Source of the DNA: Acetobacter garciniae
GTDB lineage: Bacteria > Pseudomonadota > Alphaproteobacteria > Acetobacterales > Acetobacteraceae
DNA: 64,000 nt
NCBI RefSeq assembly: GCF_017377735.1
Contig: NZ_JAFVMH010000002.1
Coordinates: forward strand, 248,001 to 312,000
Direction of reading: 5' to 3'
Below the pieces are notes generated by a model, which saw only the letters and a program-made list of their open reading frames with translations, was not told the origin of the DNA and searched no databases. Both the position numbers and the translations under genes were made by a program. Shown here one piece after another: positions 44,622-45,753 of this stretch (within the stretch, counting starts at the first letter, position 1; the number at the start of each line of letters is the position of its first letter).

Positions 44622-45753
44622 ATGTCCGCCGAGACAGACGCCCTGAACGAACAGATCAAGCAGTCGGTGGCACTGCTGAGGAGGCATCTTTAACTGGGAT
44701 GTCGCCCAAGACCGCCTGGCGGAACTGAACAACCGCGCCGAAGACCCCGACCTGTGGAACAATCCCGACGCCGCGCAGAAAATGATGCGCGAACGCACGC
44801 TGCTGGCCAACCAGCTCGAAGGTGTGCAGACGCTTGAATCCAATGTGCGCGACACGTGCGAGCTGATCGAACTGGCCGAGGCGGAAGGCGATGCCGATCT
44901 GGTCAAGGACGGCATGGTCGCCCTGCGTGACCTGGCGGAGGAAGCCAAGCGGCGCGAGACCGAAAGCCTGCTCTCGGGCGAGGCGGACAGCAACGACTGC
45001 TATGTGGAAGTCAACGCCGGCGCAGGCGGCACGGAAGCCCAGGACTGGGCCGAAATGCTGCTGCGCATGTACACCCGCTGGGCGGAAGCGCATAACTATA
45101 AGGTGACGCTGATCGAAAGTTCCGAAGGGGAACAGGCGGGGCTGAAATCCGCCACCATCCTGGTGTCCGGCCCCAACGCCTATGGCTGGCTCAAGACCGA
45201 GGCCGGTGTCCACCGTCTGGTGCGTATTTCGCCCTTCGATGCGGCGGCGCGGCGGCAGACCTCGTTCGCATCTGTCTGGGTCTATCCGGTCATCGACGAT
45301 TCGATAGAGATCGAAATCAATGATTCGGACCTGAAAGTGGACACGTTCCGCGCATCGGGGGCCGGTGGGCAGCACGTCAACAAGACCGATTCCGCCATCC
45401 GCATCACCCATATTCCCACCGGGATCGTGGTGGCCTGCCAGACGGATCGTTCACAACACCGCAACCGTGCCACGGCCATGCAGATGCTGCGCGCACGCAT
45501 GTATGAAGCGGAACTGCAAAAGCGTGAGGCCCAGGCCGCCGCGACCGAGGCCGCCAAGACCGATATCGGCTGGGGCCATCAGATCCGTTCTTACGTGCTG
45601 GCTCCTTATCAAATGGTCAAGGACCTGCGCACGGGGGTCGAAACCTCCAACCCCGATGGCGTGCTGGACGGGGACCTGGACGCCTTCATGGCCGCGGCTC
45701 TGGCCGGGCGCGTGGGGGCCACCCGTTCGGAAGCCAGTGCCAACGCGCAGTAA
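44622..45753 (+). CDS. prfB: Peptide chain release factor 2, programmed +1 frameshift
   Basis: RF2 terminates translation at UGA and UAA. The first 23 codons (44622-44690) end in CTT followed by an in-frame TAA at 44691. Shifting +1 after CTT resumes at AAC (44692) and gives [16 protein letters not shown] and the rest, 376 residues in total. An AGGAGG at 44679-44684 lies three bases before CTT, the known RF2 stimulator spacing. The core has [14 protein letters not shown] (SPF codon-recognition loop) and [12 protein letters not shown] (GGQ). The stop at the shift site is UAA, not the usual UGA. GGAG at 44609 supports the start. Confidence 0.95.

Follow-up and report, generated by a model that had tools for sequence, protein, structure and literature searches.

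The prfB locus and its frameshift site

A 64,000-nucleotide stretch of the Acetobacter garciniae genome (assembly GCF_017377735.1, contig NZ_JAFVMH010000002.1, positions 248,001 to 312,000 of the forward strand; hereafter the window) carries prfB, the gene for release factor 2 (RF2), with a frameshift cassette whose in-frame stop is TAA in place of TGA (Table 1). The prfB frameshift is a textbook case of self-regulation through a codon that, as UGA, only RF2 reads, and the UGA-type +1 programmed frameshift of Escherichia coli prfB was reportedly described by Craigen and Caskey. The cassette in the window reads AGGAGG-CAT-CTT-TAA-C, in which a Shine-Dalgarno-like sequence fitting AGGRGG stands 3 nt before CUU, the CUU is followed by the in-frame stop and a C, and the +1 frame then encodes the rest of RF2 without offering an earlier start, bearing out the UAA stop that the initial annotation had claimed for this site. 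The hexamer, the 3-nt spacer, CUU, the in-frame stop followed by C and the +1 position of RF2 are all shared with E. coli prfB, whose frameshift is described in the accessible text of PMC12421855 and PMC13245932; unlike the E. coli site, the window has UAA, which release factor 1 (RF1) can read, Asn rather than Asp as the first +1-frame residue, and CAT rather than TAT as the spacer. Because the stop is TAA, the site is not placed in the narrower class of RF2-only (UGA) autoregulation.

The +1-frame protein is identified as RF2 by the NCBIfam model TIGR00020 (514.6 bits, cut-off 370) and also resembles E. coli RF2 structures. Its first residue is Asn, whereas TGA-type relatives have Asp, and the comparison with these relatives upholds the proposal that a single G-to-A change from TGAC turned Asp into Asn. 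No ATG, GTG or TTG lies in the RF2 frame between the TGA 15 nt upstream and the shift site, so the annotation's query about an earlier start that would make the shift needless is answered in the negative. The first start codon downstream is the ATG at 44782, 30 codons past the site; in relatives it falls at codon 21, 31 or 32 without a fixed position, and in the commonest of these cases the 18 nt before it hold no evident Shine-Dalgarno sequence. The +1 shift is thus required for a complete RF2.

The window contains a single copy of the 16-base cassette AGGAGGCATCTTTAAC, and 0 of 100 shuffles produced one even with one mismatch tolerated. All 71 of the Acetobacter and Gluconobacter rows compared have the ATG of the first open reading frame (ORF1) at the same distance, 19 codons ahead of AGG AGG. 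The row closest to the window prfB in the RF2 tree described below has 84% identity in RF2 DNA. A transfer RNA scan of the window found none, and a plasmid search gave no match.

Table 1 Features of the prfB locus, in positions of the window
Feature	Position	Strand	Remarks
prfB, whole locus	44622-45753	+	ORF1 plus RF2 body
prfB ORF1, 23 codons + TAA stop	44622..44693	+	ATG 44622 through CTT TAA
TGA in RF2 frame, 15 nt ahead of shift point	44677..44679	+	bars upstream start in that frame
Internal Shine-Dalgarno-like AGGAGG	44679..44684	+	sequence; conservation far above synonymous expectation
Spacer codon CAT, 3 nt	44685..44687	+	sequence
Slippery CUU U (CTT at 44688-44690)	44688..44691	+	sequence; slippage inferred from E. 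coli mechanism
In-frame stop TAA replacing TGA, then C at 44694	44691..44693	+	sequence
RF2 body, +1 frame from AAC 44692, 353 codons + TAA stop	44692..45753	+	

Distribution of TAA and TGA at the prfB site

Among 46 readable prfB sites of Acetobacter, 31 carry TAA and 15 carry TGA. A pattern search of the genus matched 47 of 49 genomes, comprising 30 TAA sites, 15 TGA sites and two chance matches (G039 and G042), and a protein search was run on the four genomes without a true pattern site (G030, G035, G039 and G042). The protein search revealed the 31st TAA site in G039, CGGAGG-TAT-CTT-TAA-C; G030 and G042 yielded only a match of ~35 to 38% identity, taken as RF1, and G035 yielded nothing. 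TAA was also present in 11 of 26 sites of Gluconobacter/Neokomagataea. No TAG was seen at the 46 Acetobacter sites read, nor did a pattern open to TAG find one in the 26 Gluconobacter genomes.

In a draw of 397 genomes from Acetobacteraceae, the family to which the initial annotation had correctly pointed, the TAA pattern was found in at least 18 genomes from 3 of 102 genera, namely g1 (Acetobacter), g54 (Gluconobacter with Neokomagataea) and g30; the figure of 18 is a lower bound, since this pattern misses G039. A pattern accepting TAA or TGA matched 334 of the 397 genomes, which is not a full count of TGA. No drawn genome of the genera g4, g17 and g95 matched the latter pattern, and the family therefore probably contains lineages with a lost or changed prfB frameshift.

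Wider searches showed that TAA is rare outside Acetobacter and Gluconobacter/Neokomagataea. A draw of 385 genomes from the class gave four matches to a TAA-or-TAG pattern, all TAA and one of them the genome of the window, the other three being assigned to prfB by the 21-base match only. A stricter TAA pattern applied to 84,980 species genomes returned 58 stretches (24 Acetobacter, 6 Gluconobacter, 3 Neokomagataea, 6 Magnetococcales, 5 Bartonella and 14 others), and in 56 of them the TAA site leads into an RF2 frame that stays open for 100 codons or more, the remaining two lying near a stretch end. The TAA sites of Bartonella (five records) stand beside one in a metagenome-assembled genome of Tokpelaia (L068, L079, L082, L088, L120 and L100), and those of Magnetococcales come from six metagenome-assembled genomes (L070, L073, L080, L084, L111 and L117). 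TAA may be clade-fixed in these two groups too, from which only TAA records were sampled. In L031 and L085, the draft RF2 frame stops after 139 codons, which reflects either an error in the assembly or a disrupted copy of prfB.

Gain and probable loss of TAA on trees

Trees of RF2 codons were built with the site codon excluded. In the tree of 113 rows, which requires a minimum of four TAA/TGA changes, the 30 Acetobacter TAA rows used (G027 was left out, its frame ending after 139 codons) lie inside a 35-row branch with support 100/100, while the 15 TGA Acetobacter form a separate branch (99/97). The 35-row branch also includes the AT-rich g30 (2 TAA rows) and g40 (3 TGA rows), which were probably pulled in by base composition. 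When third positions were removed (87 rows, the two g30 rows of differing length left out), the 30 Acetobacter TAA rows formed their own clade with support 100/98 and g40 moved away; this tree does not resolve the TGA Acetobacter as one branch and needs a minimum of three changes. The Acetobacter TAA species used thus constitute one well-supported clade, and a scattered occurrence of TAA was rejected within the genus, where TAA follows the tree. The question of whether TAA is fixed or strain-specific, raised in the initial annotation, is accordingly settled by the trees as clade-specific.

The Gluconobacter group exhibits a more complex pattern. With RF2 alone, a single TAA clade was not rejected (approximately unbiased (AU) test, p 0.085), but with eight syntenic genes from 13 species it was rejected for both protein (AU p 6.9e-8) and DNA (AU p 2.4e-6). 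The 13-species set leaves out five Neokomagataea-like TAA rows and two TGA rows; over all 20 Gluconobacter/Neokomagataea regions, no gene set was shared widely enough for a concatenated tree. The TAA species G439 is sister to the TGA clade in the 13-species tree, on which a gain followed by a return and two separate gains cost two changes each. TAA is paraphyletic in the group on the 87-row tree, where gain and return is the shorter history. TAA was thus either gained and then reverted or gained more than once, and we favour gain and return because it is shorter on the 87-row tree and because TAA is rare elsewhere.

Constraint on the cassette

The cassette is conserved beyond coding need. AGGAGG-CAT-CTT is present in 28 of the 30 Acetobacter TAA rows, and the other two have TAT, one of them also with CGG for the first AGG. 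In the RF2 genes of these rows, AGG makes up 2.1% of Arg codons and CTT 16.4% of Leu codons. The number of changes on the tree of the TAA clade is one for the first AGG, zero for the second and zero for CTT, compared with a mean of 6.40 over 245 other codons of unchanged residue, only two of which show none. The 15 TGA Acetobacter rows likewise show zero changes in the four cassette codons. Given a cassette nearly frozen against some 6.4 synonymous changes elsewhere, frameshifting appears to be still under selection in the TAA clade. The second base of the stop is also unchanged within this clade, whereas each of the 44 A/G third positions in codons for conserved Glu, Lys and Gln has changed; as the base is non-synonymous, its invariance is only a hint of constraint.

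Two AT-rich genomes of ~1.5 and 1.7 Mb within Acetobacter, L161 (G038) and L151 (G039), have kept TAA with the spacer TAT, one of the pair having CGGAGG in place of AGGAGG.

Release factors and stop-codon usage

The genome encodes RF1 (TIGR00019, 486.6 bits, cut-off 423.25), and a UAA switch would probably be readable by RF1 as well as by RF2. The RF2 of the window has alanine at the position of E. coli residue 246, a residue associated with efficient reading of UAA, and the same holds for each of the 71 Acetobacter and Gluconobacter rows whichever stop they carry. According to the available text of PMC5373646, E. coli strains carrying Ala246 use both factors to read UAA, and the prfB ribosome density in such cells is about six times that of prfA. 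A simple competition model that we set up with E. coli numbers and basal frameshifting of 0.21 predicts that full loss of RF2 would lift frameshifting to 0.66 where RF1 accounts for 14% of UAA termination, and to no more than 0.35 where it accounts for half. No RF2 residue beyond the one encoded at the site switches with the stop in both genera.

Stop usage was compared through ORF-based counts in two ~20 kb stretches per genome. In Acetobacter, TGA terminates 47.0% of 672 ORFs in 25 TAA genomes versus 69.8% of 427 ORFs in 15 TGA genomes, and in the Gluconobacter group 54.0% of 287 ORFs in 10 TAA genomes versus 71.1% of 294 ORFs in 10 TGA genomes. G+C content at third codon positions explains the Gluconobacter difference but not all of that in Acetobacter, where a model that includes this variable still fits a TGA share 17 points lower for the TAA clade, species not being independent. 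Matched orthologues showed no significant stop difference over 17 Gluconobacter sets; one set was usable in Acetobacter, whose sampled stretches share almost none. The terminal stop of prfB itself (TAA at 45751-45753 in the window) is TGA in 0 of 30 Acetobacter and 0 of 11 Gluconobacter TAA rows, against 3 of 15 and 1 of 15 TGA rows, respectively, which are small numbers. The link between a TAA site and stop usage is weak and serves as a lead.

Discussion

Taking together the sequence, distribution, tree placement and constraint of the cassette with the RF1 gene and the RF2 alanine, the reading that we consider probable is a working autoregulatory prfB +1 frameshift with UAA, in which the brake would be the summed UAA-reading activity of RF1 and RF2. 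The ribosome would stand at CUU while the internal AGGAGG pairs with 16S rRNA, and at UAAC termination would compete with a slip of tRNA-Leu from CUU to UUU. A shortage of release factors would tip this contest towards slippage and allow full RF2 to be made. Because UAA is read by both factors, the brake would respond to their combined activity, RF2 probably contributing the larger share. The stop would have arisen in the ancestor of the Acetobacter clade and been retained, and Gluconobacter would have acquired it as well and probably given it up later. The occurrence of frameshifting, its autoregulatory role and the size of the RF1 share are points that we infer.

Two observations weigh against this reading. 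The variable base of the stop doubles as the opening base of the Asp/Asn codon, and constraint on it can therefore not be assigned to the stop alone. In addition, the accessible text of PMC8073009 reports that a Bacillus subtilis gene given UAA in place of its UGA stop lost its response to knock-down of either factor, and by analogy UAA may be insensitive to loss of a single factor and the prfB loop may hardly respond to RF2. The rsbV swap of that study resembles the present case in that replacing UGA with UAA alters which release factor matters, and differs from it in being engineered, in having no frameshift site and in being insensitive to single-factor loss. The initial annotation had suggested that the change could weaken or rewire autoregulation. 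It is supported in part: its sequence claims stand (the UAA stop, the one-base change, Asn and the family), and as to weakened or rewired regulation, which is no more than a possibility, the loss of factor response in B. subtilis speaks for it, while the alanine at the 246-equivalent position and a cassette without decay speak against a large effect.

Several other explanations were weighed. The swap could be nearly neutral, with an abundant RF2 of the Ala246 type doing nearly all of the UAA reading and feedback running as with UGA. The alanine in all rows, the roughly sixfold density of prfB over prfA in the E. coli strain (PMC5373646), the two or more TAA/TGA exchanges in Gluconobacter that left the cassette intact, and the equal cassette constraint of TAA and TGA clades are consistent with this account; we nevertheless regard it as rather unlikely, since free exchange would not lead one to expect TAA to be so rare otherwise, and the invariant base in the Acetobacter TAA clade, set against the 44 changed third positions, hints in the same direction, though that base is non-synonymous. 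We give considerably less credit to an attenuator, in which a UAA loop blind to RF2 would fix a constant fraction of full-length RF2. The B. subtilis insensitivity to either factor (PMC8073009) would fit such a device, but UAG would serve it equally well and yet is absent from both genera at the sites described above and, in the published account, from 8,164 genomes (PMC12421855), an argument that is weak in turn because TAG would also change the residue to Ser.

It is also conceivable, though very doubtful, that Asn at the first +1-frame position was itself the selected advantage and UAA a by-product. The change is necessarily Asp to Asn and is the only one in RF2 to accompany the stop in both genera, but Asp is found in every TGA row (15 of 15 Acetobacter, 15 of 15 Gluconobacter and 38 of 38 full-length rows from other genera) and therefore looks preferred over Asn. 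An artefact, either a base error at 44691-44693 or a downstream RF2 start that dispenses with the shift, is scarcely credible. We found nothing in its favour. The sequencing error against which the initial annotation had advised a check was rejected, as TAA stands in 31 of 46 readable Acetobacter sites and the same cassette recurs across many independent genomes. Upstream and downstream RF2 starts were likewise rejected, because no start precedes the site and the downstream one varies in position; in the window its use would cost 30 residues, and conservation of the cassette would not be expected.

The survey of Prince et al. 2025 (PMC12421855) reports CTTTAA in 1.4% of 8,164 motif genomes, finds no TAG among them and describes the UAA variant as not broadly fixed in clades. 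The window cassette is identical in kind to these TAA-type sites, but, contrary to that account, a whole Acetobacter clade carries TAA as a fixed stop (31 sites), and 11 of 26 species in a second genus have it too; Acetobacter is not mentioned in the main text of the survey. In the open-licence PMC literature, we found no paper on the prfB frameshift in Acetobacter or Gluconobacter and no report of clade-wide TAA fixation of this size or of a probable return to TGA. The finding is thus real and well supported as a member of a known frameshift family with a known rare stop that is nevertheless clade-fixed and was not seen by the published survey, and the Acetobacter and Gluconobacter clades contradict the published statement that UAA does not fix broadly.

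More tentatively, the prfB switch of these acetic acid bacteria could have come to measure the total activity of class-I release factors (RF1 plus RF2), with stop usage shifted alongside it (TGA less used, and TAA and TAG more, in the Acetobacter TAA clade) and a return to RF2-only sensing in the TGA Gluconobacter branch. The two culturable genera offer natural species pairs that differ at the stop codon with the rest of the cassette equal, and such pairs make it possible to ask directly to what the loop responds and why UGA is almost universal.
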